Assembly: GCA_944388125.1 (NCBI GenBank)
Contig: CALXHO010000010.1
Location: forward strand, 1-50,031
Direction: 5' to 3'
DNA from: an uncultured Gemmiger sp.
GTDB taxonomy: Bacteria; Bacillota; Clostridia; Oscillospirales; Ruminococcaceae
DNA: 50,031 nt
Shown here: positions 30,673 through 45,944 of the stretch, piece after piece
How positions within the stretch are numbered: the first letter of the stretch is position 1
Layout of the letters: every line of letters starts with the position of its first letter
Made by a program: the position numbers and the translations under genes
Notes under the pieces: model-generated
Told to the model about the DNA's origin: nothing
What the model saw: only the letters and a program-made list of their open reading frames with translations
The model's database searches: none

Positions 30673-33600
30673 TTACTTGGCTGCCTTTTCTGCCTTCCAG
30701 CGGCGGCGGATGGCCACAACGCCCCAGACGATCAGAGCGATGGCAACGATCCACTCACCGATGATGATGAAGTAGTAGTTTGCAAAGGGCAGTTCGCCGA
30801 CCACCGTGCCGTGGACAACGCCGTTCATGGCGTTGGAGTTGACGGTGGTGTAGAGGATGTGCTTGAGAGCCTGACGTGCATAGTACTGGGAGGCCGGGTT
30901 GGTGATGTCCAGAGGAGCATCCACCGCGTAGCCGGTCAGCTTGAGGTCGCCGCCGGCGCGGATGCACTGCTCGGTATCCATAACGCCGCCGCCGTCGTAG
31001 TCGGTGATGACGGAGCCGTCAAAGCCCCACTCGTTGCGCAGCACGCCGGTGATCAGGTTGTAGTTGCCGCCTGCCCAGGTGCAGCCCACACGGTTGAAGG
31101 CCGTCATGACCGCCATGACTGCGGGGATATCGGCCGTGGTCTCGGTGTAGGAGTCGGTCTCGGCGTCATACTGCTGAACTTTGATGGTGGTGGTGGGACG
31201 CTCTTCGATGCAGGTCTGGAAGGGCTTGAGGTAGATCTCACGAATGGCCTGCTCGTTGGCAAAGGTGGCAACGTGGCTGCGGTGGTCTTCCTGATCGTTC
31301 AGGGCAAAGTGCTTGATGTATGCGTAGACGCCCTTCTGAGAGCAGGCACTGACCGCCTGGAGAGCCATCTCGCCGGAGATGAAGCCGTCCTCGGAGTAGT
31401 ACTCGAAGTTACGGCCGGCAAACGGAGTGCGGTGGATGTTCATAGCCGGTGCGTACCAGCCGGAGATGATGCCGATGTAGGTATGATCGCCCCAGTTGCC
31501 GTCGGCAGCCAGAGCATCCTCGCCCACGTAGTAGCCGTGGAGGTAGGAGTTCTCACGATCCCAGCTGGCAGCCAGGTTGGTGGCGCAGGGATAGGTGATG
31601 GAGTAAGGCTCATGGGTGACACCGCCCTCGTTCAGGCCGGAGGGGCCGTCGAAGTCGATGGCACGAGGTTTGCCGGCAGCGGTGGAAGCCAGAGTCTGGT
31701 AACCGCCGTTGCGGATGATGTTCTCCAGCTCGCTGGCGTCCATCTGGTTGATCAGGGCGTCCCAGCCGCCCTCGGCCTCGACCTCGTCGAAGTCACGGCC
31801 GCGGAAATCGATCAGTTCCAGGTCGCCGTCCTGGCCGTAGACGCCGGCCTTGGAGGCAGCCTCTTCCTCGCTCATGGGGTTGAGGGATGCCTCAGCGCCC
31901 TTTGCCAGGATGGCATTCTTGATGCTGTCGGAAACTTCCAGCTCCCAGGTGTAGCCGTTCTTCTCGCTGAATTCGCTCTTGCGCTGGCTGTCCTGGTTGC
32001 CGTGAGTCTTGGGGAAGGTGCCGGTCCAGTCCTGACGGGTCAGGTACTGGTCACGGGGGGTAAATTCATCGTAGCTGGCAGTATCAAACTGGTTGGTGAT
32101 TGCAGCGCCGGTCTCGGAAGTGGAGAAGGTGACGTTGTCCACACCGCCGTTGGCAGCGTAGTTGTAAGTCCACTTTCCCACGAAAGCGGGATCGGGAGTG
32201 CCGAACAGGCCGTCGTTGGCAGCGCCCTGGTAAGCCAGGAAGTTGTTGACGGCGTGGTGGGCGTTGGTGGCGGCGGTCAGCAGGTAATCGCCGGCCTCCA
32301 GGATGTAGGTCTTGGCCTGGACATCATCGTAGGAGATGAAGTCCTTCTCGTTGACGGTGACGGTGACCGTCTCGGAAGCGCCGGGCTCCAGTTCGCCGGT
32401 CTTTTCGAAGCCGACCAGAGAAGCAGCGGCTTTTTCGATGTGGTTGGTGCGGTCGTAGTCGGTGTAGGGGGTGTTCAGGTAAACCTGGACAACGTCACGG
32501 CCGGCAACGGCGCCGGTGTTGGTGACCTTGACGCTGATCTGGATGTCACCGTTTTCATCCATGTTGCTCATCTGGAAATCGGACCACTGGAAGGTGGTGT
32601 AGGTGGTGCCGTAGCCGAAGGGGTACTGCACGGTGGTGGCGTAGTCGTAGTCACCGGCATTGCCCTGATCCAGCATCTTGTCAAAGTAGCGGGTCTCGTA
32701 GTACTTGTAGCCGACATAGATGCCCTCGTCGTAGAAGACGCCGGCCTCCACATCCTCGCCGTTGTTGACCAGCATGGTATCGCCCATGTTCTGCATGGCA
32801 GGAGAGGAGAAGGCATCGTAGGCGAAGGTATCCACCAGATGGCCGGAGGGGTTGACATTGCCGCTGAGCACGTCAGCGATGGAGCGGCAGGTATCGCCGC
32901 CGGCACCGGGTGCCCACAGGACAGCGGAGATGTTGGGATAATCTTTGATCCAGCCCAGCTCAAAGGCGTTGTTGGTGTTGACAACGATGATGACGTTGTC
33001 GAAGTTATCGTTCAGGTAGCTGATGACACCCAGCTCGACGGAGTCGGGCTCCAGGTAATGCTTTTCCTTATCTTCCTCGATGTCGGTCCAGTCGCCCATG
33101 TAGCGGCCCAGGTCACGGCCCTCGCCGCCGGTACGGGAGATGAAGAAGATGGGAGTGGTGCCCTGGGCTTCGGTCTTGGCCTCATCGGGGATGGCGTCGA
33201 TGGGCGCCTCGTTGATGGACCAGTCCTCGGCGCCGCCGTACATGATGGCGCCGCCGCCGCGGGTGTAGGTATCCTTGTTTTCGGTGTAGAAGTTCCACAG
33301 CGACTCATTGATGGAGAAGCCCTGTTCCTGCAGAGCGGTGCGCATGTCGCTGGAGATGGTGCTGACGCCGGAACCGGTGCCGCCGGCCAGCAGGTTGATG
33401 GAAGAAGCGGAGAACAGGCTCAGTTTGGAGCCAGCTGCAACAGGCAGGCCCTTGCCGCCGTCGTTCTTGTTGTAGAGCAGAACAAAGCCTTCAGCGCCGG
33501 CCTTGCGGGTGTAAGCCTGCTCGGCAGCCTGCAGCTCATCGGAATCGGTGATGTCGCGGGTGTAATACTCCGCGTCCACACCGTTGGTGGTGTCGCCGAA

Positions 33601-33765
33601 ATTGAATTCGGTCTCACCGAAGATATCGCGCAGAACCAGGTCGTAGGACATGGGCGCGATGGTGGCAAGTGCGATGGAGAACGCCAGCAGGATGGCCAGC
33701 AGCGGTGCAACGATCGCTGTGAAGACCTTGGCGCTCAGCTTTTTCTTCTTTTTCTCTTTTGCCAA
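30673..33765 (-). CDS. Circularly permuted GH3-type glycoside hydrolase with membrane helix at each end
   Basis: 1,030 residues. After a Lys-rich cytoplasmic start and a membrane helix (about 14-36), the GH3 C-terminal domain comes first (around 95-415, ending in YPFGYGTTYTTFQWSD), then a fibronectin-III-like domain (IQISVKVTNTGAVAGRDVVQVYL, about 420-500), a spacer, and only then the GH3 TIM barrel (about 640-990). The barrel has DGPSG, FAGRNFEYYSEDG, KHFALNDQEDHR and the nucleophile D922 in VITDYDGGG. A second helix near the C-terminus (IIIGEWIVAIALIVWGVVAI) is followed by a basic tail. The enzyme should sit outside the cell, tethered twice. It probably cleaves beta-glucosides or xylosides. 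AGGAGG precedes the ATG. Confidence 0.9.
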   Translation of the reverse strand: MAKEKKKKKLSAKVFTAIVAPLLAILLAFSIALATIAPMSYDLVLRDIFGETEFNFGDTTNGVDAEYYTRDITDSDELQAAEQAYTRKAGAEGFVLLYNKNDGGKGLPVAAGSKLSLFSASSINLLAGGTGSGVSTISSDMRTALQEQGFSINESLWNFYTENKDTYTRGGGAIMYGGAEDWSINEAPIDAIPDEAKTEAQGTTPIFFISRTGGEGRDLGRYMGDWTDIEEDKEKHYLEPDSVELGVISYLNDNFDNVIIVVNTNNAFELGWIKDYPNISAVLWAPGAGGDTCRSIADVLSGNVNPSGHLVDTFAYDAFSSPAMQNMGDTMLVNNGEDVEAGVFYDEGIYVGYKYYETRYFDKMLDQGNAGDYDYATTVQYPFGYGTTYTTFQWSDFQMSNMDENGDIQISVKVTNTGAVAGRDVVQVYLNTPYTDYDRTNHIEKAAASLVGFEKTGELEPGASETVTVTVNEKDFISYDDVQAKTYILEAGDYLLTAATNAHHAVNNFLAYQGAANDGLFGTPDPAFVGKWTYNYAANGGVDNVTFSTSETGAAITNQFDTASYDEFTPRDQYLTRQDWTGTFPKTHGNQDSQRKSEFSEKNGYTWELEVSDSIKNAILAKGAEASLNPMSEEEAASKAGVYGQDGDLELIDFRGRDFDEVEAEGGWDALINQMDASELENIIRNGGYQTLASTAAGKPRAIDFDGPSGLNEGGVTHEPYSITYPCATNLAASWDRENSYLHGYYVGEDALAADGNWGDHTYIGIISGWYAPAMNIHRTPFAGRNFEYYSEDGFISGEMALQAVSACSQKGVYAYIKHFALNDQEDHRSHVATFANEQAIREIYLKPFQTCIEERPTTTIKVQQYDAETDSYTETTADIPAVMAVMTAFNRVGCTWAGGNYNLITGVLRNEWGFDGSVITDYDGGGVMDTEQCIRAGGDLKLTGYAVDAPLDITNPASQYYARQALKHILYTTVNSNAMNGVVHGTVVGELPFANYYFIIIGEWIVAIALIVWGVVAIRRRWKAEKAAK

Positions 33766-34061
33766 AAGAAATCCCTCCTATTTCAGATCACCGCACTCTC
33801 CCTCTTGGGGGAAAGCGCAGTCTTTGCGCAGTCCACACAGAGTGTGGCTGCGGGCATCAAAGCCGGGACTGCGGGACTGTGGAGTTTCACCGTCTGTGTC
33901 CGGGGAACTTCGGGCAGGAAAGGTCTATCAGGAACGCCCGGAGTGCCGACGCAGACGGAGACTACCGCCGCCAGTTTCGCCGTTTTCTCCTTGTTGTGTC
34001 CTCCTTTGCTTGTCGTGACGGCGCCGTGTGGCAGAAGCGGAATCCCCCATGTTTCCACAAA
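33766..34061 (-). other. ~290-nt untranslated leader of the permuted GH3 gene
   Basis: No gene found. On the minus strand it follows a promoter and ends at the GGAGGG site of the GH3 gene. Hairpins include CCACAC/GTGTGG (33838-33852) and GCGCA/TGCGC beside it. No leader terminator and no known riboswitch consensus are seen. Confidence 0.45.
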
Positions 34062-34091
34062 ATTATCCCACAAATCTCAGCTCATTAGTCA
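34062..34091 (-). promoter_or_regulatory. Promoter of the permuted GH3 gene
   Basis: Extended -10 TGGGATAAT (GATAAT at 34062-34067) with TGACTA as -35 at an 18-bp spacing. It begins right after the terminator of the kinase gene. Confidence 0.55.
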
Positions 34092-34100
34092 CAATATAAC

Positions 34101-34131
34101 AAAAGAAACACCTGCTCTCAACAGGTGTTTC
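34101..34131 (-). terminator. Terminator of the first two-component operon
   Basis: 10-bp stem GAAACACCTG/CAGGTGTTTC followed by TTTTG on the minus strand. Confidence 0.8.
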
Positions 34132-34168
34132 CGGAACTGTACGTTTTTTTCGTATTCTGACGTTGGGA

Positions 34169-35539
34169 TCATTCTTTGCCGTTTGCACCGAACAGAATGT
34201 TCAAATGAAAGACGTCCCTCTCCGCATAGGTGGTCAGTGTGCCGTCGTATTTATGGACGATCATGCGGATGCTGCGCAGGCCGAAGCCGTGGTAATCCTT
34301 GTCTGCCTTGGTGGTCACCGGCAGGCCGTCGCGGAAGGTGAGGGTGCCGTCGAAATAGTTGTCCGCCTGGATCATCAGCAGATCTCCCTGCGCCTTGACC
34401 AGCAGGTTGATGACCCGGCGTTCCTGCTCCGAAATGGCCTTGACCGCCTCCAGTGCATTGTCCACAATGTTGCCAAACAGGCAGTAAAGGTCGCTGCCGT
34501 CGATAAAGTCCAGCTTTTCACCGTCCGCCATGCAGGAGAAGGTGATGCCGTTCTGCTCACAGTAAAGGCTTTTCTCGGTGAGAAGGACATCCAGCAGCTG
34601 ATTGCCCGTCTCCACCTTGGCGTCATAGATGGAGATGCTCTGCCGCAGATCCTCCATGTCCTTTTCCCTCAGACCGCCGTTCTGTGCTCCCAGGGCTGCA
34701 ATCTTGTAGCGGATGTCGTGGCACTTGACATTGATCAGGTCGATGGTGTCCTTGGCAATCTCGTACTGGCGGCGGCCCTGGCGGATGGCATACTGAAGGT
34801 ACTCCACCTCCTGCTTGAGCTCCCGCTTTTCCGCCGTGCGGCTGGCCAGCTGCAGTACAATGGCACAGCAGGTCACCGAAAAGAGGTTTCCGGTCTCCTT
34901 CAGCACCAGATAGTCCACGGGATCAAACTTCTGTTCCAGCTGCGTGCTGAGAAGCGTGAAGTAGATGTCCTCCACTGAGCACAGAAATACTGCGATCACC
35001 AGCACGAACACACACAGGGCCAGCAGCTGGCGATCCATCTGCCAGTTGTTGAGATGGCGCGTCGTACGGCGGATGAAAAGGAAATAGGCCAGAGCTGCCG
35101 TCGCCGCAAAGAAGATCACATAGACGATGCGATAGTACAGCAGGAAGTGCGGCACATCCCGTACCTGATCCAGTGCCCCCCGGCAGAGATCCAGCACCAT
35201 CAGCCGCAGCTTGTAGCACATATTCTGGGCTGCATAGGCCACACTGCAGCAGAACAGGATGGTGGAAAACTGCTGTGCGAAACAAAGGTACATGTGGGCG
35301 ATGGTAACGGCGAACAGGACAAGGTAGACCCCGATCCGTCCCAATACGGTATCCCCCCAGAGCCGGTAGGCCGCGGCTGCACCGATGGCCAGCACCAGGA
35401 CCCCGGCCGCACCGCCCAGCAGGCGCAGCCAGAACCGCGGCCGGCGCTTGAGGGTGAAAAAGGTCAGGCCGTAAAAAACATACAGCTCAAACAGGAATTC
35501 AAGGATGACTTCCCAATAGATAAAGGACAGTTCCGCCAT
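34169..35539 (-). CDS. GHKL-domain sensor histidine kinase (AgrC-like), module 1
   Basis: 456 residues; ATG 35539 with GGAGG upstream. About six hydrophobic segments in the first 230 residues form an AgrC-like sensor, then a coiled-coil linker (EKRELKQEVEYLQYAIRQG) and the phosphoacceptor H274 in INVKCHDIRYKI. The ATPase domain has the N-box FGNIVDNALEAVKAI and the G-box YHGFGLRSIRMIVHKYDG. It lies 2 nt after its response regulator gene. The ligand is unknown; AgrC relatives sense peptides, but no precursor peptide gene is seen. Confidence 0.9.
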   Translation of the reverse strand: MAELSFIYWEVILEFLFELYVFYGLTFFTLKRRPRFWLRLLGGAAGVLVLAIGAAAAYRLWGDTVLGRIGVYLVLFAVTIAHMYLCFAQQFSTILFCCSVAYAAQNMCYKLRLMVLDLCRGALDQVRDVPHFLLYYRIVYVIFFAATAALAYFLFIRRTTRHLNNWQMDRQLLALCVFVLVIAVFLCSVEDIYFTLLSTQLEQKFDPVDYLVLKETGNLFSVTCCAIVLQLASRTAEKRELKQEVEYLQYAIRQGRRQYEIAKDTIDLINVKCHDIRYKIAALGAQNGGLREKDMEDLRQSISIYDAKVETGNQLLDVLLTEKSLYCEQNGITFSCMADGEKLDFIDGSDLYCLFGNIVDNALEAVKAISEQERRVINLLVKAQGDLLMIQADNYFDGTLTFRDGLPVTTKADKDYHGFGLRSIRMIVHKYDGTLTTYAERDVFHLNILFGANGKE

Positions 35540-35541
35540 CG

Positions 35542-36258
35542 TCACTTTCCTCCCTGGAAACCTGCGTACCAGTTGGTCAGTTCCGCCAGGAAGGCCGCCC
35601 GCCGGGGGCGGCTGATCTGAAGCGTGGTGCTGCCCACCTGGACTGTGTATCCCTTGACTTTGACCACAAATTTGGGATTGACCAGATAGCACTTGTTGCA
35701 GCGCAGGAATCCGAAATCGTGCAGCTCCTGCTCCACATCGGAGAGCACGCCGGTGCGCTCGATGACATCGTCCACCAGATGATAGATCAAACGATGATTA
35801 AGGATCTCCACATACATCAGCTTGTCGGTGGAGATCCGGCAGATGCCCCCCGACGAACTGACTGTGAAACTGCGCTCCTCGTTCATCAGATAGATGTCCA
35901 GCGCCTTTTTGAATTTCAGCGAGAAATCATAGTAGCTGACCGGTTTGACCAGAAATCCCACCGCGTCCACCTCGTAGCCTTTCAGGGCATACTGAACCAG
36001 ATTGGTGGCAAAAATCAGGGAGACGTTGCGGTCCAGCTTCCGCAGGGCGGCAGCGGTCTCCATGCCGTCCCGGCCGGGCATCTGGATGTCCAGGAACACC
36101 ACTGCGTAAATGGGACGGTATTCCCGGAGAAATTTTTCCCCGCTCTCACTTCTGGTGACCTCAAACTCCTGGCCCGTTTCGGCTGCGTAGCGCGCGATAT
36201 ACTCGGTCAGGGTCTGGGCCGCCGGGGTTTCATCTTCAACTATGGCGATCTGTTTCAC
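35542..36258 (-). CDS. LytTR-family response regulator, module 1
   Basis: 238 residues from GTG 36258. Receiver domain: acidic pocket E8/D9/E10, phosphoacceptor D57 in VVFLDIQMPGRDG, and the conserved Lys in FLVKPVSYYDF. C-terminal LytTR DNA-binding domain (about 130-238) with YVEILNHRLIYHL and FLRCNKCYLVNPKFV. It closely parallels the module 2 regulator (41079-41789), including identical position of D57, so the two are paralogues. Confidence 0.92.
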   Translation of the reverse strand: MKQIAIVEDETPAAQTLTEYIARYAAETGQEFEVTRSESGEKFLREYRPIYAVVFLDIQMPGRDGMETAAALRKLDRNVSLIFATNLVQYALKGYEVDAVGFLVKPVSYYDFSLKFKKALDIYLMNEERSFTVSSSGGICRISTDKLMYVEILNHRLIYHLVDDVIERTGVLSDVEQELHDFGFLRCNKCYLVNPKFVVKVKGYTVQVGSTTLQISRPRRAAFLAELTNWYAGFQGGK

Positions 36259-36294
36259 GTTTCACCGTACCTTTCAGCCGGTCATTCTGTTTTT

Positions 36295-36323
36295 ATTATA
36301 CCGTTGTGCGCCCCGCTGCGCAA
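36295..36323 (-). promoter_or_regulatory. Promoter of two-component module 1
   Basis: TTGCGC (36318-36323), 17-bp spacer, TATAAT (36295-36300) followed by AAAAACA. Very similar to the module 2 promoter. Confidence 0.7.
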
Positions 36324-36344
36324 GGCGCACGGCGCCGCCCCCGG

Positions 36345-36405
36345 CAAAAAAAACGTCCCGGCATAAACCAACCCCCGTCCCACGGGACTGGCGTGAGCGG
36401 GGGTT
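36345..36405 (-). terminator. Probable terminator after the gtrA-like gene
   Basis: AACCCCCG/CGGGGGTT stem (36370-36377 with 36398-36405); a T-run on the minus strand (36345-36352) comes some 17 nt later. Not a textbook terminator. Confidence 0.45.
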
Positions 36406-36480
36406 GCTTGCGGCATCCGGAGTACAGGGATATTGATTCGGAAGGTCGGATCCCGCGGGGAAATGGTTCAGTTGTAGAAA

Positions 36481-37053
36481 TTATTCGGCGCTGCCGGAAG
36501 CCTTGGGGGCGCTGTCCGCCGAGGGGAAGATGATCTTGTTGACAAAGAAGAACACGATCATCGAGATGCCGCCGTTGAGCACCGTGGTGCCGATGTTGTA
36601 GATGAAGTCGGGAACCAGCAGACCGGCCACCGCGACCCAGATGCAGTTGATGGAGTTGACGATGCAGGTGATGACGCAGAACGCCAGCAGGTACCAGGCG
36701 ATCTGGGGGCCAAGCTTGCCCTTGGAGCGGAAGACGAAGTTGCGCTGGATGGGGAAGTTGATGCATTCACCGATGACCATGGCCACCATGTAGGCGCAGA
36801 AGTAAGCCAGACCGCCGTGAGCCTGATCGTAACCCAGAATGTTCCACTCGAAGGTCTCGCCGAACAGGGTGATGGGAATGCCCGGCCAGCCGAAGCTGGC
36901 ATCGCCCAGGCCCGCGAAAGCCGCCGGCAGGAACTGAAGCATCAGGTACTTGAATACCGTAATGACATTGCTGACGATGACAAACAGGCCGCCTTCACGC
37001 ACCCACTTGGCTGCCGCCGGATGTTTTGCGGCGAAATTAGACCAGATATTCAT
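36481..37053 (-). CDS. GtrA-like integral membrane protein
   Basis: 190 residues; ATG 37053 overlaps the TGA of the GH3 gene, with AAGGAG upstream. Four hydrophobic segments are present. GECINFPIQRNFVFRSKG matches the conserved GtrA/DPMS_TM motif (…N-x-x-F-x-x-x-R-x-F-V-F), and IVFFFVNKIIFP is the closing one. GtrA proteins are thought to flip or hold polyprenyl-linked sugars. Coupling to a GH3 enzyme suggests a role in handling a glycoconjugate or its sugar; this is inference. Confidence 0.8.
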   Translation of the reverse strand: MNIWSNFAAKHPAAAKWVREGGLFVIVSNVITVFKYLMLQFLPAAFAGLGDASFGWPGIPITLFGETFEWNILGYDQAHGGLAYFCAYMVAMVIGECINFPIQRNFVFRSKGKLGPQIAWYLLAFCVITCIVNSINCIWVAVAGLLVPDFIYNIGTTVLNGGISMIVFFFVNKIIFPSADSAPKASGSAE

Positions 37054-39482
37054 CACTTGCTCTCCTTTTTCTCTGCGATGCGCTTGTCCATGAACGAATT
37101 GAGCACCATATTGCGGACCAGCTCAAAGAGGACGCGCAGGATACCGATGATCCAGAAGCCCTTGAGTTCCATGACCAGGCCGTCCACCATGCCCATGCTG
37201 ACCATACCGCCCGTCATTTTGGCGATGGCACGCAGCGGCATATTGTAGTTGAACAGCAGGTTCAGGTCGGGGTTGCCGGCCTTGAGGCTCTTGTCCAGCA
37301 GATGCTTGTGGATGACGTGGACCAGCCAACCCAGCGGGCTGCGGCCGTGGCCGATCTCGCCCAGGGTCATGTTGCGGTCGATGGCCACCTTTTCCTCCAG
37401 GATGGGGCGTCCCAGAATGGCCGAGAACTCCACCTCGGGCACATCCTGCACCTGGCCGCTGACGTAGTGGGGCAGCGAGTTGCCCACATACGGGTTGGCA
37501 TCGCCGGAGGATTCCACCGTGACGGTGCCCTCCAGGCGGATATCCTCGCAGGAAGAACCCACGCGCACCACATAGCTGCCGCCTTCCACGGCCCAGTGAC
37601 CGGCGGGCTCGTTCCAGTAACGGAAAGCCTTGTCATCCAGCGGGATGGAGACGGTCTTGCTCTCCCCTGCCTCCAGCGAAACGCGGGCAAAGCCCTTCAG
37701 TTCCTGCATGGGGCGGAAAATCTCGGCATCGGGTTTGGAAATATAGACCTGAACCACCTCGTCGCCCGCACGGTCGCCGGTATTGGTGACCGTCAGCGAG
37801 ACGCCGGTGGGTGTGGCGTGGAGGTCCTTGTACTCGAAGGTGGTGTAGGACAGGCCGTAGCCGAAGGGCATGGCCACCGGCACGCCCGCCGTCTGGTAGT
37901 AGCGGTAGCCGACATAGAGGCCCTCGCGGTACTGGACGGTGCGGCCGTCCTTGCCGAAGTTGTTGTAGGAGGGGTTGTCCTCGCAGTGCAGCGGCCAGGT
38001 CTCGGCCAGACGTCCGGCGGGGTTCACCTTTCCGGTCAGCACATCCAGCACGGCACCGGCGCTCGCCTGGCCGCCCAGGCCCGCCCAGACCAGTGCCTGG
38101 CAGTGGCTCTGCCAGTTGGTCTCAATGGCGCTGCCGCAGCTCAAAATGACAATCAGATGGGGGTTGGCACGATGCACCGCCAGCAGCAGGTCGATCTGGT
38201 TTTTGGCCAGCTTCATATCGCTGCGGTCCAGGCCCTCGCTCTCCTTGACCTCATCCAGGCCGAGGAACAGCAGAACCGTTTCCGCCTTTTCGGCCAGCTT
38301 GACGGCCTCGGCCTGAAGGGCAGCGTCCGGCTTGCCGTAACGGTCGAAGCCCTTGGCAAAGCCCACCGTCTTGAGGCCGCTCTGCTCGAACACCTGCAGG
38401 AAGCTGTCCACCTTGGGAGCGTTGACCATACTGGAACCAGCGCCCTGATAGCGCGGGGTCTGGGCAAAATCGCCGATGACGGCAATGCGGTCCTCCGGGT
38501 TCAGCGGCAGCAGGCCGCCCTTGTTCTTGAGCAGGACGATGCTCTCCGCCGCGGCCTTGCGGGCCAGGGCATGGTGGGCATCCCAGTCGATGGTCTTGGG
38601 GGCCTTTTCCAGCGCCTTGCTGGTGGATTCCACCAGGGACAGGAATTCCTCCAGGCGGGCATTGATATCCGCCTCCGAGATCTTGCCGGCCTTGACTGCC
38701 TTGACCAGCTCCCGCACCGAATCCAGGCCGGGGGCGGGCATTTCCAGGGTGGAGCCGTTCTTGACGCCCAGGGCGTGATCGTTGGAGCCGCCCCAGTCGG
38801 TGACGACGGCGCCGTCAAATCCCCAGGTATCCCGCAGGATCTCCTTGAGCAGATGGGCGTTCTCGTTGGCGTAAGTACCGTTGACCAGGTTGTAGCTGGT
38901 CATGATGGTCTTGGGACGGCCCTCGGTGACGGCGATCTCAAAGTTGGTGAGGTAGAGTTCCCGCAGGGTGCGCTCATCCACCACCGAGTCGGTGGCCATG
39001 CGGCGCAGTTCCTGGCTGTTGGCTGCAAAATGCTTGGGGCAGGCGGAAATGCCGTTCTCCTGAATACCGCGGATGTAAGCGGCAGCCATCTTGCCCGCCA
39101 GGTAGGGGTCCTCCGAGAAGTATTCAAAGTTCCGTCCGCACAGCGGGCTGCGCTTGGTGTTCAGGCCGGGGCCCAGCAGTACGGCAACGTCCTGCGCGGC
39201 AGCTTCCTGGCCCAGCGCCCGGCCGATCTCCTCGCCCAGGGCAGGGTCCCAGCTACTGGCAACGGCCGACGCCGTGGGGAAGCAGGTCGCAGGCTCACTG
39301 GGATTGATGCCCAGATGGTCGCTCTCCCCTGCCTGCTTGCGCACGCCGTGGGGGCCGTCCGACAGCCAGATCGAAGGGATGCCGTACTGCGGCAGTCCCC
39401 GCGACCGGAAAGTATCCGCACCGGAAAGCAGTGCACATTTTTGTTCCAGGGTCAGGGATTTGATCTTGTCTTTCAAGCTCAT
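37053..39482 (-). CDS. GH3-family beta-glucosidase-like hydrolase, conventional domain order
   Basis: 809 residues; ATG 39482 was chosen because MSLKDKIKSLTLEQKCALLSG is the family opening, though its ribosome binding site (GAGAAAG) is weak. Domains: TIM barrel (1-~300) with SDGPHG (41-46), KHFAANSQE (150-158) and nucleophile D229 in VVTDWGG; alpha/beta GH3_C domain (~320-560); fibronectin-III-like domain (~590-660); and a C-terminal extension (~680-809) rich in hydrophobic residues, seen in many clostridial GH3s. There is no signal peptide, so it should act in the cytoplasm on imported oligosaccharides. Paired by a one-codon overlap with gtrA-like. Confidence 0.93.
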   Translation of the reverse strand: MSLKDKIKSLTLEQKCALLSGADTFRSRGLPQYGIPSIWLSDGPHGVRKQAGESDHLGINPSEPATCFPTASAVASSWDPALGEEIGRALGQEAAAQDVAVLLGPGLNTKRSPLCGRNFEYFSEDPYLAGKMAAAYIRGIQENGISACPKHFAANSQELRRMATDSVVDERTLRELYLTNFEIAVTEGRPKTIMTSYNLVNGTYANENAHLLKEILRDTWGFDGAVVTDWGGSNDHALGVKNGSTLEMPAPGLDSVRELVKAVKAGKISEADINARLEEFLSLVESTSKALEKAPKTIDWDAHHALARKAAAESIVLLKNKGGLLPLNPEDRIAVIGDFAQTPRYQGAGSSMVNAPKVDSFLQVFEQSGLKTVGFAKGFDRYGKPDAALQAEAVKLAEKAETVLLFLGLDEVKESEGLDRSDMKLAKNQIDLLLAVHRANPHLIVILSCGSAIETNWQSHCQALVWAGLGGQASAGAVLDVLTGKVNPAGRLAETWPLHCEDNPSYNNFGKDGRTVQYREGLYVGYRYYQTAGVPVAMPFGYGLSYTTFEYKDLHATPTGVSLTVTNTGDRAGDEVVQVYISKPDAEIFRPMQELKGFARVSLEAGESKTVSIPLDDKAFRYWNEPAGHWAVEGGSYVVRVGSSCEDIRLEGTVTVESSGDANPYVGNSLPHYVSGQVQDVPEVEFSAILGRPILEEKVAIDRNMTLGEIGHGRSPLGWLVHVIHKHLLDKSLKAGNPDLNLLFNYNMPLRAIAKMTGGMVSMGMVDGLVMELKGFWIIGILRVLFELVRNMVLNSFMDKRIAEKKESK

Positions 39483-39614
39483 CTTTCTCAACTCACACTT
39501 TCTTGATGGAAATGGTTTCGGTCGTCCTGTATGACACATCCTCGGGAGAAAACCGCCCCTTCCGCACGGCGGTCGTTCCCCTGTGAGGTTTTTTGACAAT
39601 GCTATTGTAGCATA

Positions 39615-39685
39615 CCCGTTTTGTTTTACACGGAATTTGCACAACCTGCCTTTTCTCCGGCAAACTTTGCATTTTCCCCGTTTTG
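39615..39685 (-). promoter_or_regulatory. Two CAAAACGGG direct repeats at the GH3 promoter
   Basis: Identical 9-mers at 39615-39623 (in the promoter spacer) and 39677-39685, about six helical turns apart. Possible binding sites for the adjacent LytTR regulator or another factor. Confidence 0.35.
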
Positions 39686-39753
39686 CGTCGAAAATTCTTT
39701 GTGCATACCTGACAAATACCGTCCGGTTTCCCTTGTGCACTTTCCCAAAGGGC

Positions 39754-39801
39754 AAAAAAACAGCCCCCGCAGCATCGCCCGGAAAGGCAGTGCTGCGGGG
39801 G
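39754..39801 (-). terminator. Terminator of two-component module 2
   Basis: 11-bp stem CCCCCGCAGCA/TGCTGCGGGGG followed on the minus strand by CTG and seven T. Confidence 0.9.
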
Positions 39802-39816
39802 TTTGTCCGCGCCCGA

Positions 39817-41082
39817 TCAGGTGCGGTTGGGAAGCAGAATGCGCAGGATGAACCAGTTATCCTCACAGTGGACGGTAACGGTGCCGCTGTACTTTTCGGC
39901 GGCGGCACGCACGGTACGCACCCCGTAGCCATGGGGCGGCATGCCGTCGGCATCCAGCTGCACCGGGATCTCGCAGTAATTTTCAAACCGCAGCATGACA
40001 AAGCCGTGCTGGGCATAGATGGCCACGCGGATCAGGCGCTTTTCCGGGTCGGCCAGGGTCTGCACGCTCTCGGTGGCGTTGTCCAGCGCCGTGCCCACAA
40101 TGGTACAAATGTCCCCCGTGGGCATGAAATCCAGCAGGTGACCGTCGGCCACGCAGGTAAAGTTGATGTCGTGCTGCTGGCAGTAGAGGCTCTTGGCGGT
40201 GAGCAGGGTGTCCAGCACCGCGTTGCCGGTCTTGTTCTGGGCCTCATACATTTGGATGCCGCTCTCCATCTCGTCCAGGGCAGCGGCCTTCTTGCCAGGG
40301 TCCTGCTCGGCACGGATGGCGGCGATCTGCATCTTCAGGTCGTGGCAGTGGCGGTTGATGAGGCGGATGCTCTCCCGGCTTTGCTGGTACTGCTCATACT
40401 GGCGGTGGAGGACGTTGTCCATGGCTTCCAGTTCCCGGTGGAGGCTGGCCTCCATCAGCTGTTCCTGCTGGATGGAAAGTACCAGCACGCCGGCCAGATC
40501 CACCAGCGTCCGGATATAAAAGACATCCATGGTCACGGTCCCTGCCCGGGTAAAGGCGAAGTTGCTCACCGCAAAGGCGGCCAGAGCCATGACCACAGCG
40601 CTGCACAGCGCCCGCCGCGTGATGCCCAGCTCGGGATTTTTGCGCACCCGCCGGAATTCAAACCGATAGACAAAACCGTATACCAGCCCGTAAACCAAAA
40701 GCAGCAGGATCAGGGACCGGGGTTCCCGGGCGCCGCTCTGCGGCCAGAGCAGGCAGTGGATCTGCCATTCCAGGCTGGCGGCAAATTCCGCCAGAATAAA
40801 AGCCCGGGCACAGCAGTACCCCGCCTCCCGGGCATTGACCGAACAGCACAGATACAGAAAGGCGTACATGGCGGCTACGGCAGCAGCCATGCAGGGAATC
40901 CACCAGGCAATGGGGACATTGCCGGTCAGCTGGAGAAAGAGGCTGAGCCCCGCCAGCCAGAACCCGGCAGATACCGCCGTGGCGGTGCGTCCGAACCGTC
41001 TGCGCAGGGCCAGGATGTACAGCAGGCAGGCCAGCCACTCGGCCAGGGCGGTGTACTGTCGGGGAATATCGGGCAGGATCAT
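39817..41082 (-). CDS. GHKL-domain sensor histidine kinase, module 2
   Basis: 421 residues; the ATG overlaps the TGA of the regulator gene (ATGA). About six hydrophobic segments (1-200), phosphoacceptor H247 in INRHCHDLKMQI, N-box GTALDNATESVQTL and G-box HGYGVRTVRAAAEKYSG. Domain plan equals the module 1 kinase, but the sensor region is quite different in sequence, so the two should respond to different signals. Confidence 0.9.
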   Translation of the reverse strand: MILPDIPRQYTALAEWLACLLYILALRRRFGRTATAVSAGFWLAGLSLFLQLTGNVPIAWWIPCMAAAVAAMYAFLYLCCSVNAREAGYCCARAFILAEFAASLEWQIHCLLWPQSGAREPRSLILLLLVYGLVYGFVYRFEFRRVRKNPELGITRRALCSAVVMALAAFAVSNFAFTRAGTVTMDVFYIRTLVDLAGVLVLSIQQEQLMEASLHRELEAMDNVLHRQYEQYQQSRESIRLINRHCHDLKMQIAAIRAEQDPGKKAAALDEMESGIQMYEAQNKTGNAVLDTLLTAKSLYCQQHDINFTCVADGHLLDFMPTGDICTIVGTALDNATESVQTLADPEKRLIRVAIYAQHGFVMLRFENYCEIPVQLDADGMPPHGYGVRTVRAAAEKYSGTVTVHCEDNWFILRILLPNRT

Positions 41083-41789
41083 CTGACGCCTCCCCCGATG
41101 TAGTCGGTCAGCGCCTCCAGAAAGGCCTTTTTCTTGGGACGGCTGATCTGCAGGGCATGGGGCCCCACCTGCACCGTGTTCTGCCGGACTTCCAGCACCT
41201 GTTCCAGGTTGACCAGATATCCGCTGTTGCAGCGGGCAAAGGGTTTGTCGGACAGTTTCTCCTCATAGCTTTTCAGGCTGCCGGGGGTGAGCACGTCCCC
41301 GTCCTCGGTGTAGAACCGGACGTAGTGGCCCTCACTCTCCAGGTAGTAGATGGTGGCCACGTCAATGCGCCGCAGCCCCCCCTCAATGGGCACCGTCAGA
41401 AAAACCTTCTGGCGGCGGCGCAGGCGGTCCACAGCCTTCTGCAGCTGCTGGGAAAAGGCAAAGTACGGCACCGGCTTGAGAATATAATCCAGCGCATCCA
41501 CCGCATAGCCCCGGATGGCAAACTGCGCCATATTGGTGATGAAGATCAGGATGACGTCCCTGTCCACCCTGCGGATGGCCTCCGCGGCAGCCATGCCGTC
41601 CATGCGGCGCATCTGCACGTCCAGCAGGATGATGTCATACACCGCCTTGTAGTCGGAGACAATCTCATCCCCGTCCTCAAAGGTGGTCAGCTCAAACATC
41701 TTGCCGAACTGCCGCTCATACCGGCGGATGTAGCCGGCAAGCTGTTCCCGCACCTGAGGGTCATCCTCCACTATGGCGATGTGGATCAT
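41079..41789 (-). CDS. LytTR-family response regulator, module 2
   Basis: 236 residues. Receiver with E8/D9/D10 and D57 in IILLDVQMRRMDG, a Lys in YILKPVPYFAF, and a C-terminal LytTR domain (YYLESEGHYVRFY, FARCNSGYLVNLEQV). First gene of module 2 and paralogous to 35542-36258. Its promoter has a near-consensus -10 element. Confidence 0.92.
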   Translation of the reverse strand: MIHIAIVEDDPQVREQLAGYIRRYERQFGKMFELTTFEDGDEIVSDYKAVYDIILLDVQMRRMDGMAAAEAIRRVDRDVILIFITNMAQFAIRGYAVDALDYILKPVPYFAFSQQLQKAVDRLRRRQKVFLTVPIEGGLRRIDVATIYYLESEGHYVRFYTEDGDVLTPGSLKSYEEKLSDKPFARCNSGYLVNLEQVLEVRQNTVQVGPHALQISRPKKKAFLEALTDYIGGGVR

Positions 41790-41974: not shown

Positions 41975-42051
41975 TGGTGGAGAATTAGGGACTCGAACCC
42001 CAGACCCCTTGCGTGTGATGCAAATGCTCTAACCAGCTGAGCTAATCCTCC
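41975..42051 (-). tRNA. tRNA-Val (CAC)
   Basis: 77 nt with encoded CCA and A discriminator. The anticodon loop ATCACAC places T33 before CAC, and the stem is TTTGC/GCAAG. Acceptor arm GGAGGAT/ATTCTCC, T-arm GGGGTTCGAGTCC. Reads GUG. Confidence 0.92.
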
Positions 42052-42166: not shown

Positions 42167-43012
42167 TCACAGCACGGCGTGCTCAGGCACGGGAGCGTCC
42201 ACCGACGTGGGGCCGCCCTCCACCCAGTGGATGACCTTCTTGGGGCACTTCTCCACGCAGGTGCCGCAGCCGTTGCACTTGGTGTAGTCGATGCGGGCCA
42301 CGTTATTGTGCAGGAAGATGGCCTCCTGGGGGCAGTTCTTGACGCAGATGCCGCAGGCGATGCAGCCGGTCTTGCAGGCCTTGACCACGGCAGCGCCGCG
42401 CTCCTTGTTGCGGCAGAGCACTGCAGGCTGGGATGCAATGGGCTTCATCTTGAGCAGGCCGCGGGGGCAGGCACGGGTACATGCCGTACAGCCGGTGCAC
42501 ATCTCACGGTCAACCACCGCCACGCCGTCCCTGATGCTGAGAGCGTGGAACATGCAGGCATTGACGCAGTCGCCGAAGCCCAGGCAGCCGAAGGAGCAGG
42601 CCGTGGGGCCGCCCGCCACGGCAGCCGCCGCAGCACAGCTCTGGATGCCGTGATACTCAAACCGGACGCCGCAGTTCTTGCCGCCGTTGCAGGAGACAAA
42701 GGCGCGCAGGCTGGGACGGTCGCTCTCCTCCGCACCCATGATGCGGTTGATGGCGTCGGCGGTCTTGTCGCCGCCGGGAGCGCACTTGTGGGTGGGTGCG
42801 CCGTCCATGACGATGGCCTTGGCGTAGTCGGCACAGCCGGCGTAGCCGCAGCCGCCGCAGTTGGCGCCCGCCAGGCATTCGTTGATCTCGGCAATGCGGG
42901 GATCCTCATAAACGGCCATGAACTTGGAGGCCAGAACCAGAATGACACTGCCTGCCAGGCCCAGCACCGCCAGCACGATCACCGCAAAGACGATCGGATT
43001 CGCTGTAATCAT
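42167..43012 (-). CDS. rnfB: Rnf complex subunit B, multi-cluster ferredoxin-like
   Basis: 281 residues. An N-terminal membrane helix (1-30) is followed by the characteristic 4Fe-4S domain CLAGANCGGCGYAGCADYAKAI and ferredoxin motifs: CLGFGDCVNAC, CTGCTACTRAC, CIACGICVKNC and CNGCGTCVEKC. It probably accepts electrons from reduced ferredoxin. It is the last gene of rnfCDGEAB; the order is the clostridial one. Confidence 0.96.
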   Translation of the reverse strand: MITANPIVFAVIVLAVLGLAGSVILVLASKFMAVYEDPRIAEINECLAGANCGGCGYAGCADYAKAIVMDGAPTHKCAPGGDKTADAINRIMGAEESDRPSLRAFVSCNGGKNCGVRFEYHGIQSCAAAAAVAGGPTACSFGCLGFGDCVNACMFHALSIRDGVAVVDREMCTGCTACTRACPRGLLKMKPIASQPAVLCRNKERGAAVVKACKTGCIACGICVKNCPQEAIFLHNNVARIDYTKCNGCGTCVEKCPKKVIHWVEGGPTSVDAPVPEHAVL

Positions 43013-43027
43013 ATCCTCAAATCCCCC

Positions 43028-43672
43028 TTACAAGATCGCGTTGATGATGTTTTCGACCAGACCGCCGAAACCCATGAAGCTCAGGGAGGTGATGGCCGCA
43101 GACACCAGCGTGATGGGCAGGCCCTTGAAGCTCTCGGGCGGGTCGGCGTTCTCCACCCGCTGGCGCACGCCGCAGAACAGCACCATGGCCAGCAGGAAGC
43201 CGATGCCTGCACCGGCCGCGCAGACCAGCGCCTCGGCAAAGGCAAAGCCGAAGCCGTGGGTGGCGATGTCGCCGGAGTAGTCCTGCACGGCCAGGATGGT
43301 CACGCCCAGCACGCAGCAGTTGGTGGTGATCAGGGGCAGGTAAACGCCCAGGGCGCTGTACAGCGCGGGGATGTAGCGCTTGAGGGTGATCTCGATGAGC
43401 TGGACCAGGACCGCAATGACCAGAATGAAGATGATGGTCTGCATGTAGCCCAGGTCAAAGGCATCCAGCAGGAAGATCTGGATGGGGAAGGTCACGGCGG
43501 TGGCGATCAGCATGACGACGATAACGGCCATGCCCATGCCCACCGAGGAATCCAGTTTCTTGGAAACGCCCAGGAAGGGGCAGATGCCCAAGAACTGGAC
43601 CAGCACGTAGTTGTTGACCAGGATCATGCTGAAAAGGATGGTGGCAAAGGTTGCAATATTCTGTGCGCTCAC
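43028..43672 (-). CDS. rnfA: Rnf complex subunit A, integral membrane
   Basis: 214 residues, six hydrophobic segments. GTG start 43672 with GGAGGTG upstream, overlapping the rnfE stop. NNYVLVQFLGICPFLGVSKK and LPLITTNCCVLGV carry the paired cysteines that hold the intramembrane [2Fe-2S] cluster between RnfA and RnfE. Confidence 0.96.
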   Translation of the reverse strand: MSAQNIATFATILFSMILVNNYVLVQFLGICPFLGVSKKLDSSVGMGMAVIVVMLIATAVTFPIQIFLLDAFDLGYMQTIIFILVIAVLVQLIEITLKRYIPALYSALGVYLPLITTNCCVLGVTILAVQDYSGDIATHGFGFAFAEALVCAAGAGIGFLLAMVLFCGVRQRVENADPPESFKGLPITLVSAAITSLSFMGFGGLVENIINAIL

Positions 43673-44361
43673 TGTTCAGCACCTCCTTCATTGGCAGCCT
43701 TGGCGGTCTCCTGCTCTTCCAGGAGGACCTCGCCGCAGGTCTTGCGCTCGATGGGATGGTTGGTCTTTTTCTCGATCCAGACGCACAGCGCCATCAGGCA
43801 GCCGAAGACGAAGAATCCGCCGGGAGCCTGGTTCATCAGCGTCATGCGGTCGACGGAGTCGGGAATGATCTGGATGCCCATCCAGCTGCCGTTGCCGATG
43901 ATCTCGCGGATGGAGGACATAAGCACCATGGTCAGGATATAACCGATGCCCATGCCCAGGCCGTCGAGAGCGGAATCCACAACGGTGTTCTTGCAGGCGA
44001 ACATCTCGGCACGGCCGAGGATGATGCAGTTGACGACGATCAGCGCCAGGAAAACGCCCAGTGCGTCATACAGTTCGGGAATGTATGCCTGCAGCACCAT
44101 CTGGACCACGGTAACGAAGGTGGCGATGATGACGATGTAGCAGGGCAGATGGACCTTGGCGGGGATGACCTTGCGCAGGGCGGAGATCACGATATTGGAA
44201 CCCACCAGAACGAAGGTCATGGCCAGACCCATGCCCAGAGCGCCGGAGACGGTGGTGGTGACGGCCAGAGCCGAGCAGCAGCCCAGGACCAGGCGCAGAA
44301 CGGGGTTTTCACGGATGATGCCGGCGGTAAATACACGCCATTTGCTTTGTTTTTCGGCCAT
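43669..44361 (-). CDS. rnfE: Rnf complex subunit E, integral membrane
   Basis: 230 residues, paralogous to RnfA in opposite topology. ENPVLRLVLGCCSALAVTT and FLALIVVNCIILGRAE hold the expected Cys positions. The C-terminus is long and charged (EEQETAKAANEGGAEQ). It overlaps rnfA by 4 nt and follows rnfG without a gap. Confidence 0.95.
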   Translation of the reverse strand: MAEKQSKWRVFTAGIIRENPVLRLVLGCCSALAVTTTVSGALGMGLAMTFVLVGSNIVISALRKVIPAKVHLPCYIVIIATFVTVVQMVLQAYIPELYDALGVFLALIVVNCIILGRAEMFACKNTVVDSALDGLGMGIGYILTMVLMSSIREIIGNGSWMGIQIIPDSVDRMTLMNQAPGGFFVFGCLMALCVWIEKKTNHPIERKTCGEVLLEEQETAKAANEGGAEQ

Positions 44362-44949
44362 TTACGCCACCCCCTTCAGCTCATTGTTGTAGCAGTCGAT
44401 GGCCTGATTGACTGCCTTGAAAACGGCATTGGAGGACACCGTCGCGCCCGCGATGGCATCCACAGGGCTGCCGCTGGAAACCTGCTGGGAACCATCCCAG
44501 CCCACAAAGCCGGAGTAGAAGCTCTCCTCGCCGGTCTTGGAACCGATGCCGGCGGTCTGGGTGGAGGCATCCACCTTGATGTTGGTGATGGTGCCGGTGG
44601 AATCAAAGGCCACATAGACGGTGACTGCCTTGCCGGAGTAACCGTTGGAGGCGGACCTGACGGCCACGGCGCCGTCGGCGGTATAGGCTGCGCCTTCCAC
44701 GCCGTCGGTCTGGAGAGCGTCTGCCTCCACCTGGGTCAGGCTGTCGGCCTGGGTGCCCTCGGGCAGGACCTCAATGTAGGAGTTGAGGGTCTCGAGGCGG
44801 GTGTTTTCCTCAATGATGGGAGCCGTCATGTCGTTGAGCACGGCCAGGATCGCGCTGCATACCACGCAGATCACAACCAGAACAATGACGGGAACGACCA
44901 TGGTCTTGACCACGCTTTCCTGGGGCGCGGCGTTCTGTTTGTTTGCCAT
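44362..44949 (-). CDS. rnfG: Rnf complex subunit G, FMN-carrying
   Basis: 195 residues with an N-terminal membrane helix (14-36) and an extracytoplasmic FMN_bind domain. T170 in DAIAGATVSS is the Thr that carries covalent FMN by ApbE-type flavin transfer; no apbE gene is in the window. It overlaps rnfD by 1 nt. Confidence 0.95.
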   Translation of the reverse strand: MANKQNAAPQESVVKTMVVPVIVLVVICVVCSAILAVLNDMTAPIIEENTRLETLNSYIEVLPEGTQADSLTQVEADALQTDGVEGAAYTADGAVAVRSASNGYSGKAVTVYVAFDSTGTITNIKVDASTQTAGIGSKTGEESFYSGFVGWDGSQQVSSGSPVDAIAGATVSSNAVFKAVNQAIDCYNNELKGVA

Positions 44950-45941
44950 TATGCTGCCCCTCCCTTTCCGGCGGAGGCTGCGGCCGCCTTATTTTCTGCC
45001 TTTTTCTTGGGCTTGACGCGGCCCAGCGGGATCTGATGGCCCCACTCGTTGAACCAGGGGGTCAGCAGGTTGCCCATGAGGATGGCGTAGCTCATGCCTT
45101 CGTTCATGCTGCCGAAGTTGCGGATGAGGAAGGTGAGCAGGCCGATGACAATGCCGTAGATCAGCTTGCCGCGGGTGGTGAAGGGGCTGGTGACATAGTC
45201 GGTGGCCATGAAGACGGCACCGAACATCAGGCCGCCGGACAGGATCTCGGCCACGGCGGTGTGCAGATCGCCGGAGGCAATGAGGGTCAGCACAAAGACA
45301 GTGCCCACAATGCTGCCGGGGATGGCAAAGCTGATGGTGCGGGTGAACAGCAGGAAGGCCAGGCCCACCAGGATGGTGAGGATGCAGGTCTCACCCAGCA
45401 TGCCGCCGTGCAGACCAAGCAGCAGATCCAGCAGGCTGACGGTGGACTGGTCCACGCTGCTGGAAAGGGGCGTGGCGCTGGCCAGGGCATCCACGGCCAG
45501 ATCGGGATAGACGTAGGCGGTCATGCGGGAGGTAAAGCCCAGAAACAGGACGATCCGGCCCACCAGCGCGGGGTTGGCCACATTGTAGCCCAGGCCGCCG
45601 AACATCTGCTTGACGATGACGATGGCCACAAAGGCGCCCACAATGCAGATCCACAGAGGCATGCCCACGGGCACGTTGAGGGCCAGGATGATGCCGGTGA
45701 CTACAGCGGAGAGGTCCCCCACCGGGTTGCGCTTGTGCATCAGGAGGGTGTAGAGATATTCAAAGCCCACACAGGCGGCGGTGGTCACGGCGACCACCAG
45801 CAGCGCGCGCATACCGCAGATGAAGGCCGACGCCACAACGGTGGGGATCAGTGCAATGATCACGTTTCCCATCAGGCTGCTGTTGGAGGCGCTGTCCCGG
45901 ATATGCGGTGAGGCAGTTACGATCAGGCGTTGTTCTTCCAT
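44949..45941 (-). CDS. rnfD: Rnf complex subunit D, FMN-carrying membrane protein
   Basis: 330 residues, about ten hydrophobic segments. T157 in DALASATPLSS is the predicted covalent FMN site. The C-terminus is Lys/Ala-rich (KPKKKAENKAAAASAGKGG). The site of ion movement is thought to lie in D with A and E; whether Na+ or H+ is used cannot be told from sequence. Confidence 0.95.
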   Translation of the reverse strand: MEEQRLIVTASPHIRDSASNSSLMGNVIIALIPTVVASAFICGMRALLVVAVTTAACVGFEYLYTLLMHKRNPVGDLSAVVTGIILALNVPVGMPLWICIVGAFVAIVIVKQMFGGLGYNVANPALVGRIVLFLGFTSRMTAYVYPDLAVDALASATPLSSSVDQSTVSLLDLLLGLHGGMLGETCILTILVGLAFLLFTRTISFAIPGSIVGTVFVLTLIASGDLHTAVAEILSGGLMFGAVFMATDYVTSPFTTRGKLIYGIVIGLLTFLIRNFGSMNEGMSYAILMGNLLTPWFNEWGHQIPLGRVKPKKKAENKAAAASAGKGGAA

Positions 45942-45944
45942 CTG

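Follow-up and report, generated by a model that had tools for sequence, protein, structure and literature searches.

GHKL/LytTR two-component pairs beside permuted GH3 glycosidases in an uncultured Gemmiger: evidence for a proposed recurring sensor-plus-glycosidase module

Pairs of GHKL histidine kinases and LytTR response regulators are best known from peptide signalling. The described neighbourhood closest to the one considered here is that of Butyrivibrio proteoclasticus B316, where three LytTR response regulators each have as a near neighbour a secreted GH3 that carries a membrane helix at its C-terminus, and where the authors inferred a common function (Kelly et al., 2010; PMC2914790). 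Since this likeness (LytTR regulator near a membrane-held GH3) holds in all three cases, the LytTR-GH3 neighbourhood is not new in itself; on the other hand, the parts of that account used here include no kinase lineage, GtrA link, permuted domain order, operator sites or spread across phyla. In the present work we analyse a stretch of 50,031 nucleotides from an uncultured Gemmiger sp. (GenBank assembly GCA_944388125.1, contig CALXHO010000010.1, positions 1 to 50,031), to which we will refer as the window. It carries on its minus strand two regulator-kinase pairs (RR1-HK1 and RR2-HK2), a permuted GH3 (GH3p), a conventional GH3 (GH3c) and a GtrA-like membrane protein, and open reading frames (ORFs) and Pfam matches place all these genes where an earlier note, made from the letters alone, had put them (Table 1). 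With a probability of about 0.62, we read the locus as an instance of a recurring sensor-plus-glycosidase module, in which a GHKL/LytTR pair would control a permuted GH3 and, in the kinase lineage of HK2, also GH3c and the GtrA-like protein.

Other described systems share single traits with this locus. Permuted GH3 enzymes are a defined subfamily, with GlyA1 as an example (PMC5104943; PDB 5k6l-o). GlyA1 and the Paenibacillus barengoltzii enzyme (5wug, 5wvp) have the same order GH3_C, FnIII, GH3_N as GH3p, that is, an (alpha/beta)6 sandwich, FnIII and an (alpha/beta)8 barrel, but they are only 24-25% identical to it, and GH3p differs further by its two terminal helices and by the two-component pair linked to it; in the available text of the GlyA1 paper, a word search found neither “transmembrane” nor “operon” nor “regulator” (PMC5104943). 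AgrC/AgrA resembles the pairs described here in its polytopic sensor, GHKL kinase core, LytTR output and direct-repeat boxes, and differs in that no AgrB was found in the present genome and the cargo is glycosidases. The operators of LytTR regulatory systems (LRS) are formed by direct repeats separated by 11-13 bp and situated a short way upstream of the -35 (PMC6193735, in the part consulted); an LRS consists of a LytTR regulator with an inhibitory membrane protein and autoregulation, whereas here a receiver and a kinase are present and 0/64 regulator upstream regions are boxed. The Gram-positive polysaccharide utilization loci (gpPUL) also combine glycoside hydrolases with regulators, and the entry for Roseburia gpPUL Ros-7 lists RR[LytTR] and HK (PMC5320581). 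The window locus has a pair of GH3 genes and a pair of regulators. A scan of the flanking window genes, which did not extend to three frames of the Rnf region (43028-44949), revealed no carbohydrate transport system, and the locus is therefore not a gpPUL by the definition published in the sections of PMC5320581 used here. Finally, the three-component glycosylation systems with GtrA/GtcA, as far as covered in the part of PMC7389260 used, likewise have a small GtrA-family membrane protein; here a divergent branch of that family is coupled to GH3c, and no GtrB adjoins it among the window genes scanned. In the titles and abstract beginnings of the open-licence LytTR-glycosidase literature that was searched, there is no description of the operator sites, of the link to a kinase lineage or of the GtrA branch dedicated to GH3, and the GHKL/LytTR-GH3 module looks like a real, largely overlooked regulated system.

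The association between regulators and permuted enzymes was mapped in 11 genomes of the genus with 80 LytTR rows and 106 GH3_C rows (genomes and loci are denoted below by G and L numbers). A “long” GH3 was any with an open frame of at least 950 aa, as a proxy for the permuted order, which was aligned only for the fetched loci; the window GH3c, with an open frame of 992 aa, was assigned to the conventional class by hand, nine fragmentary GH3 rows were kept outside both classes, and five LytTR rows are missing from the map (G026 1/6, G006 1/11, G027 2/11, G031 1/3). A LytTR gene lies within 5 kb of 34/55 long GH3 genes vs 2/42 conventional ones, both of the latter also being within 5 kb of a long GH3; for the fragments the count is 2/9. 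Seen from the regulators, a long GH3 is found at up to 5 kb from 36 of the 80 LytTR rows and is absent at this distance from the other 44. All four long GH3 genes of G004, a single-contig genome, are near a LytTR gene (random mean 0.09; 0/50,000 draws), as are both of those in G026 (16/50,000 draws). The nearest regulator of the 34 long GH3 is mostly upstream on the same strand (27), less often upstream and divergent (5) or downstream (2). In the own genome of the window (2.57 Mb, 115 contigs), LytTR domains number 11, HATPase_c_5 domains 14 and GH3_C matches 13, and contigs 25 and 33, as well as contig 1 in two places, also have regulators together with GH3p.

The arrangement is not confined to the genus. 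When named bacterial genomes were scanned with the GH3p alignment, the best 80 of 589 relatives were taken, giving 80 outside loci; with a regulator profile built from the genus, which can miss divergent regulators, both a regulator and a kinase were found within 5 kb of GH3p in 35/80, and in 19 of the 40 loci having 5 kb of sequence on either side of the anchor. GH3c and GtrA are within the same distance in 19/80 and 17/80, respectively. Regulator-kinase-permuted GH3 units are present in Bacillota, Actinomycetota and Mycoplasmatota. The full row RR-HK-GH3p-GH3c-GtrA occurs in Anaerobium acetethylicum (L129) and in a Clostridiales metagenome-assembled genome (L132); all five genes, in other orders or with intervening genes, are found in Fusibacter (L140), Butyrivibrio and Pseudobutyrivibrio (L142, L143) and Streptococcus ovis (L193), as well as in Cellulomonas, Demequina and Cellulosimicrobium (L133, L134, L139), GC-rich loci in which the mechanical frames are long and overlapping. 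The earlier note had proposed comparing gene order across relatives, and counted a lack of joint conservation there as a refutation of its reading; RR-HK-GH3 units do recur, both in the genus and in the outside loci, and its reading survives this check. As a separate observation, a GGDEF protein and an EAL protein lie between kinase and GH3c in Butyrivibrio (L142, 7537-8658) and Pseudobutyrivibrio (L143, 4413-6314).

Candidate operator sites were sought in the stretches between a regulator or kinase and the next GH3. Starting from 36 candidates, five were dropped for gaps below 50 or above 400 bases and two as near-duplicates (L057, and L049 at 7418); the set comprised 31 regions, including the two of the window. 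Direct repeats (11 bases, at least 9 matches) at a period of 20 or 21 are present in 11/31 regions, with counts of 4 at period 20 and 7 at period 21 that were reached in 0/200 dinucleotide shuffles (means 0.70 and 0.60), and other periods from 13 to 40 never occur in more than two regions. The box matrix of all regions, which is in-sample, is roughly TACAGTTTGTGCC; significance was taken from leave-one-out matrices and from matrices lacking the window or the genus regions, the controls being 760 upstream stretches taken from other mechanically called ORFs of the same loci. Under leave-one-out, 13 of the 31 regions lie at or below 0.05 and nine at or below 0.01, and those from outside the genus passing 0.05 are L167, L193, L137, L162, L129, L192 and L132. 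The matrix trained solely on the 22 outside regions detects six of the nine genus regions at 0.05 (L051, L055, L053, L039, L049 and the window GH3c), and the score of the window GH3c site is reached by 0/760 controls. This pair of boxes is the best on both strands of the whole window (20.8, next place 14.2, with the outside-only matrix), and it is also at the top with a matrix lacking both window regions (18.9, next 17.1); with its period of 21 and a -10 at 28 nt, the GH3c promoter fits the LytTR-type description.

The position of the boxes is also regular: in 12 of 17 promoters with a strong pair (L057 omitted, window GH3p not entered), the best -10-like hexamer starts 27-31 nt past the second box, vs 1.6 in rotations (0/5,000). 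Upstream of the regulator genes, 0/64 regions have boxes at score 14, to be read against 14/760 controls (about 1 expected); autoregulation through GH3-type boxes was thus considered and discarded for these 64 regions. The common direct repeats that the earlier note suggested looking for in GH3 promoters are accordingly found in many of them, and the anatomy of the sites agrees with the regulatory link which it drew, binding by the regulators being the probable explanation of that anatomy.

The two regulators are paralogues (41% identity over 233 residues), with D57, counted by hand on the translations, at the same place within the LLD/FLD motif of both. HK1 and HK2 match at 35% over 226 residues of the catalytic core, which they have in common as had been claimed, and Pfam recognises only HATPase_c_5 in each. 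H247 of HK2 is invariant among 20 kinases, and the HK2 model (pLDDT 85.6, pTM 0.59) has six membrane-size helices followed by a long helix into the kinase core. In a quick maximum-likelihood tree of 53 kinases, with SH-aLRT support only and several long branches flagged, HK2 falls in a clade of 22 kinases spanning Bacillota, Actinomycetota and Mycoplasmatota, and HK1 lies outside it, grouped with its G008 orthologue and L172; the window therefore contains one unit of each lineage. GH3c or GtrA is found within 9 kb of 16/22 kinases in the HK2 clade vs 2/31 outside it, L053 being scored as GH3p-only by this 9-kb rule though GH3c and GtrA come after its three GH3p genes. The cargo label needs 7 changes on the tree vs 15.3 in shuffles (0/500 as low). 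An earlier split of the kinases by a regular expression for the sensor motif was too crude and was superseded by the tree. Taking the map and the tree together, it is the permuted membrane GH3, not GH3 in general, that is statistically tied to the regulators, and the conventional GH3 joins mainly in one kinase lineage.

Gene order in the genus points to exchange between units. Close orthologues of the window GH3p (86-92% identity) stand directly before GH3c-GtrA in G022, G025 and G012; in G022 this row is behind RR2-HK2, and in G025 and G012 the upstream stretch is short or lacks a regulator. Paralogous GH3p genes precede GH3c-GtrA behind RR2-HK2 in G018 and G027; in G008 a GH3p paralogue likewise precedes GH3c-GtrA, and the orthologue (94%) follows RR1-HK1, just as it does in the window. 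RR2 orthologues head the unit in L051, L053 and L055. Since the kinases belong to different clades and the orthologues and paralogues of GH3p change position, the two modules are reshuffled neighbours and not a simple duplication of one design; the units as such are kept in relatives. The spacing from boxes to -10 of the HK2 promoter is 28 nt both before the window GH3c and before GH3p in G018, G022 and G027 (31 in G008); judging from these promoter sequences, the HK2 promoter stayed in place while the cargo behind it changed.

The module that we favour would work as follows. The polytopic GHKL kinase would perceive a cue at or in the membrane and, as expected from its family, phosphorylate the LytTR regulator, which would bind the pair of direct repeats preceding the GH3 promoter at close range and so activate the enzyme genes; the gene of the regulator itself shows no such sites. 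The permuted GH3, a putative beta-glycosidase anchored on the outside of the membrane through its two terminal helices, would trim glycosides, and in the HK2 lineage the GtrA-like protein might move a sugar or a lipid-linked sugar across the membrane, so that the conventional GH3 inside the cell could complete the breakdown. In the window, units of both lineages lie side by side, with the permuted GH3 now behind HK1.

Several results weigh against this reading. Within the genus, a LytTR gene is missing from the 5-kb surroundings of 21/55 long GH3 genes; G012 has 0/4 near LytTR, one of the four starting some 2.5 kb away from the end of a contig, and G027 only 4/12, some being later genes of multi-GH3 rows. 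Outside the genus, 45/80 loci have no regulator, no kinase or neither within 5 kb, some of them cut by contig ends. As regards the boxes, 18/31 regions are not above the controls at 0.05 under leave-one-out, the spacing of 20/21 outscores all six other spacings tried in only 17/31, five of the 31 regions are related promoters of one genus, the matrix from the nine genus regions detects only 3/22 outside regions at 0.05, and the mechanically called control ORFs include some that are not genes. The promoter of the window GH3p is weak in particular: in a block shared with G008, two box-like words follow each other at a distance of 20 bases, with an offset of 30 nt to the -10, but these score only 2.1 and 1.8, and the region is not above controls (0.061 under leave-one-out, from another site, and 0.849 with the stricter matrices).

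With respect to the enzymes, the permuted order that had been claimed for GH3p is found both in its Pfam matches and in its predicted structure (pLDDT 82.1, pTM 0.86), for which Foldseek ranks 1-6 are all 5k6l-o, 5wug or 5wvp, over 961-984 columns of the permuted core. E215 and D922 are both invariant, in 16/16 rows of one comparison and in 20/20 of another, and we take them, by analogy, to be the catalytic pair; beta-glycosidase activity, a mark of the permuted subfamily, is putative for GH3p. The model has helices at the ends (12-49, of low confidence with block means of 40-62, and 996-1029), both in stretches that are hydrophobic by eye; from these two helices, GH3p would be located at the outer membrane face. 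GH3c matches solved conventional beta-glucosidases in sequence (PDB 8j9f, 7ms2), its nearest NCBIfam family is alpha-L-arabinopyranosidase (754.9 bits vs a cut-off of 1300), and with no N-terminal hydrophobic stretch visible by eye it is probably cytoplasmic.

GH3p genes also show irregular forms. Three or four paralogues stand in a row in single loci (L128, L053, L056), and on contig 1 of the own genome partial GH3p-like frames of 171 and 482 aa (L041 5874-6389 and L042 13826-15274), beside regulator-kinase pairs, look like decayed copies. An apparent kinase-GH3 fusion on own contig 33 (L040 8400-9300; open frame 1706 aa, apparent fusion ORF 1530 aa) was rejected: a frameshift close to the 3' end of the kinase gene lets the reading continue across the intergenic hairpin and join the GH3p frame, which reflects either an assembly error or a decayed kinase.

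The GtrA-like protein, whose gene is coupled to GH3c, as previously proposed, with a start that overlaps the GH3c stop, matches Pfam GtrA with 28.2 bits (cut-off 26.1), and belongs to a divergent branch matching the profile from position 23/24 onward only. In 14 genus genomes, divergent genes are within 2 kb of a GH3 in 15/19 cases and within 8 kb in 18/19 (4/19 divergent rows being under the Pfam cut-off), vs 0/26 for typical GtrA and 0/4 for other weak rows, which were counted apart. G022, G018 and G025 were entered in this count with their GtrA-adjacent GH3 only, so the GH3 list is incomplete for their 6 typical GtrA of the 26, and a few GH3 fragments were not entered.

Among the alternatives, the one surviving best is that of an ordinary nutrient locus, to which we give somewhat less than an even chance: the pair would sense plant glycosides or oligosaccharides and control GH3 catabolism, the GtrA-like protein being incidental or a sugar porter. 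Kelly et al. interpreted this neighbourhood, in Butyrivibrio, in terms of carbohydrate sensing (PMC2914790, in the part consulted), the solved permuted GH3 are described as beta-glucosidases or beta-glycosidases, one of them from the rumen, and among 100 clustered loci a family represented by an MFS_2 sugar transporter as its tested member occurs in 11 and a family which is GH2-like by eye in 13. Against these stand the lack of any sugar import system among the window genes scanned, a kinase model without an extracellular domain, and a usual membrane partner from a divergent GtrA branch which is not a known sugar porter.

A further account, rather unlikely in our view, is the remodelling of a cell-surface glycopolymer, in which the GtrA-like protein, with a GT2 and sometimes UDP-galactopyranose mutase (GLF), would handle polyprenyl-linked sugars, the GH3 would trim or recycle the product and the kinase would sense the state of the envelope. 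Typical GtrA-family proteins are held to flip polyprenyl-linked (C55-P) sugars, according to the parts used of PMC7389260 and PMC7117936, and a GT2 glycosyltransferase family (two members tested) is present in 7/100 clustered loci. On the other hand, the GH3-linked GtrA is of the divergent branch, no GtrB-type GT2 was found beside the unit among the window genes scanned, nor did any GT-C turn up there (no search being aimed at GT-C), and the two GLF matches of the own genome are on other contigs than the unit. GLF adjoins the unit in L053 (17007-18119, same genus) and in L140 (6218-7324, Fusibacter). The glycoconjugate handling proposed in the earlier note is thus no more than hinted at, by GtrA, by GT2 in those seven loci and by the mutase in two. 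Equally doubtful is a bolder extension of the module: a signalling-glycosidase system across three phyla, whose kinase lineage would sense a glycoside or lipid-linked sugar in the plane of the membrane, with the permuted GH3, held at both ends, making or removing the cue beside the sensor, and the GH3-dedicated GtrA-like protein supplying the inner GH3 as a transporter, of a new type, for glycosides or polyprenyl-sugars.

An Agr-kind peptide quorum sensing circuit driving the enzymes appears improbable. The LytTR regulator would suit it, and the best Foldseek matches of HK2 are the kinase core of AgrC (6e95, 6e52), but the NCBIfam AgrC model gives HK2 only 21.4 bits vs a cut-off of 500 and HK1 matches no NCBIfam family. 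No AgrB match was found in the own genome (G000, 86.75% complete), with a weak control given that 14 control genomes yielded only one, under the cut-off; such a circuit is therefore without support here, though a peptide of another kind could be the cue. Neither was a recurring small gene seen among the listed neighbour clusters, from which short peptide genes would escape because only ORFs of at least 60 aa were included. Least of all do we credit coincidence or hitch-hiking of lineage-specific paralogues, since the many paralogues in one genus and the unlinked G012 are outweighed by the LytTR enrichment with conventional GH3 as control, the recurrence in three phyla and the period-specific boxes.

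The coordinates of the genes and candidate signals are collected in Table 1.

Table 1. Genes and candidate regulatory signals of the locus in the window.
Feature	Position	Strand	Basis
RR2, LytTR response regulator (module 2)	41079-41789	-	Pfam Response_reg + LytTR
HK2, GHKL histidine kinase (polytopic sensor in the membrane) of the clade linked to GH3c/GtrA	39817-41082	-	HATPase_c_5, model, tree
Terminator-like hairpin + T run 3' of HK2	about 39754-39801	-	By eye
Two LytTR-type boxes, period 21, upstream of GH3c	39638-39671	-	Repeat search + matrices
Probable extended -10 of GH3c-GtrA promoter	39604-39609	-	28 nt past second box; spacing equal in L055, L051, L053
GH3c, conventional GH3, probably cytoplasmic, C-terminal extension	37053-39482	-	Pfam order GH3_N, GH3_C, Fn3-like
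Divergent GtrA-like membrane protein; start overlaps GH3c stop	36481-37056	-	Pfam GtrA, branch analysis
RR1, LytTR response regulator (module 1)	35542-36258	-	Pfam Response_reg + LytTR; 84% orthologue in G008
HK1, GHKL histidine kinase, clade other than that of HK2	34169-35539	-	HATPase_c_5, tree
Candidate weak LytTR-type boxes before GH3p, period 20	34129-34161	-	Block common to G008; -10 offset 30
Terminator-like hairpin overlapping GH3p promoter; -35 in loop, -10 at 34093-34098	34104-34132	-	Hairpin scan
GH3p, permuted GH3, helix at each end	30673-33765	-	Pfam order GH3_C, Fn3-like, GH3_N

Terminators had been proposed after both kinases, and a hairpin is found at each place: the one after HK1 by scan, and that between HK2 and GH3c by eye, because its loop exceeds the length allowed by the scan. 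In an alignment read by eye, the pairing in the stem of the GH3p-promoter hairpin is kept in G008 despite changes on both sides. The GH3p leader (33766-34090, minus strand, 325 nt) folds more stably than its shuffles (z -2.87; 0/100 as stable); as candidates for its nature, a known riboswitch was rejected (no Rfam match at the gathering cut-off or at E up to 1), as was a repeated element, the only copy in the genome being its own. Beyond module 2, an Rnf-like electron-transport operon (42167-47285, minus strand) with RnfC, NQR2/RnfD/E and Fer4 matches ends just upstream of a tRNA-Val (41975-42051) and the module.

For the biology of these bacteria, the analysis describes a set of GHKL/LytTR systems whose position, promoter sites and lineage link them to surface glycosidases, which are present in many copies per gut or rumen genome. 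It provides a sequence-based reading of how GH3 paralogues may be regulated, a defined candidate operator, and a handle on the GtrA-like branch and the kinases that accompany it.

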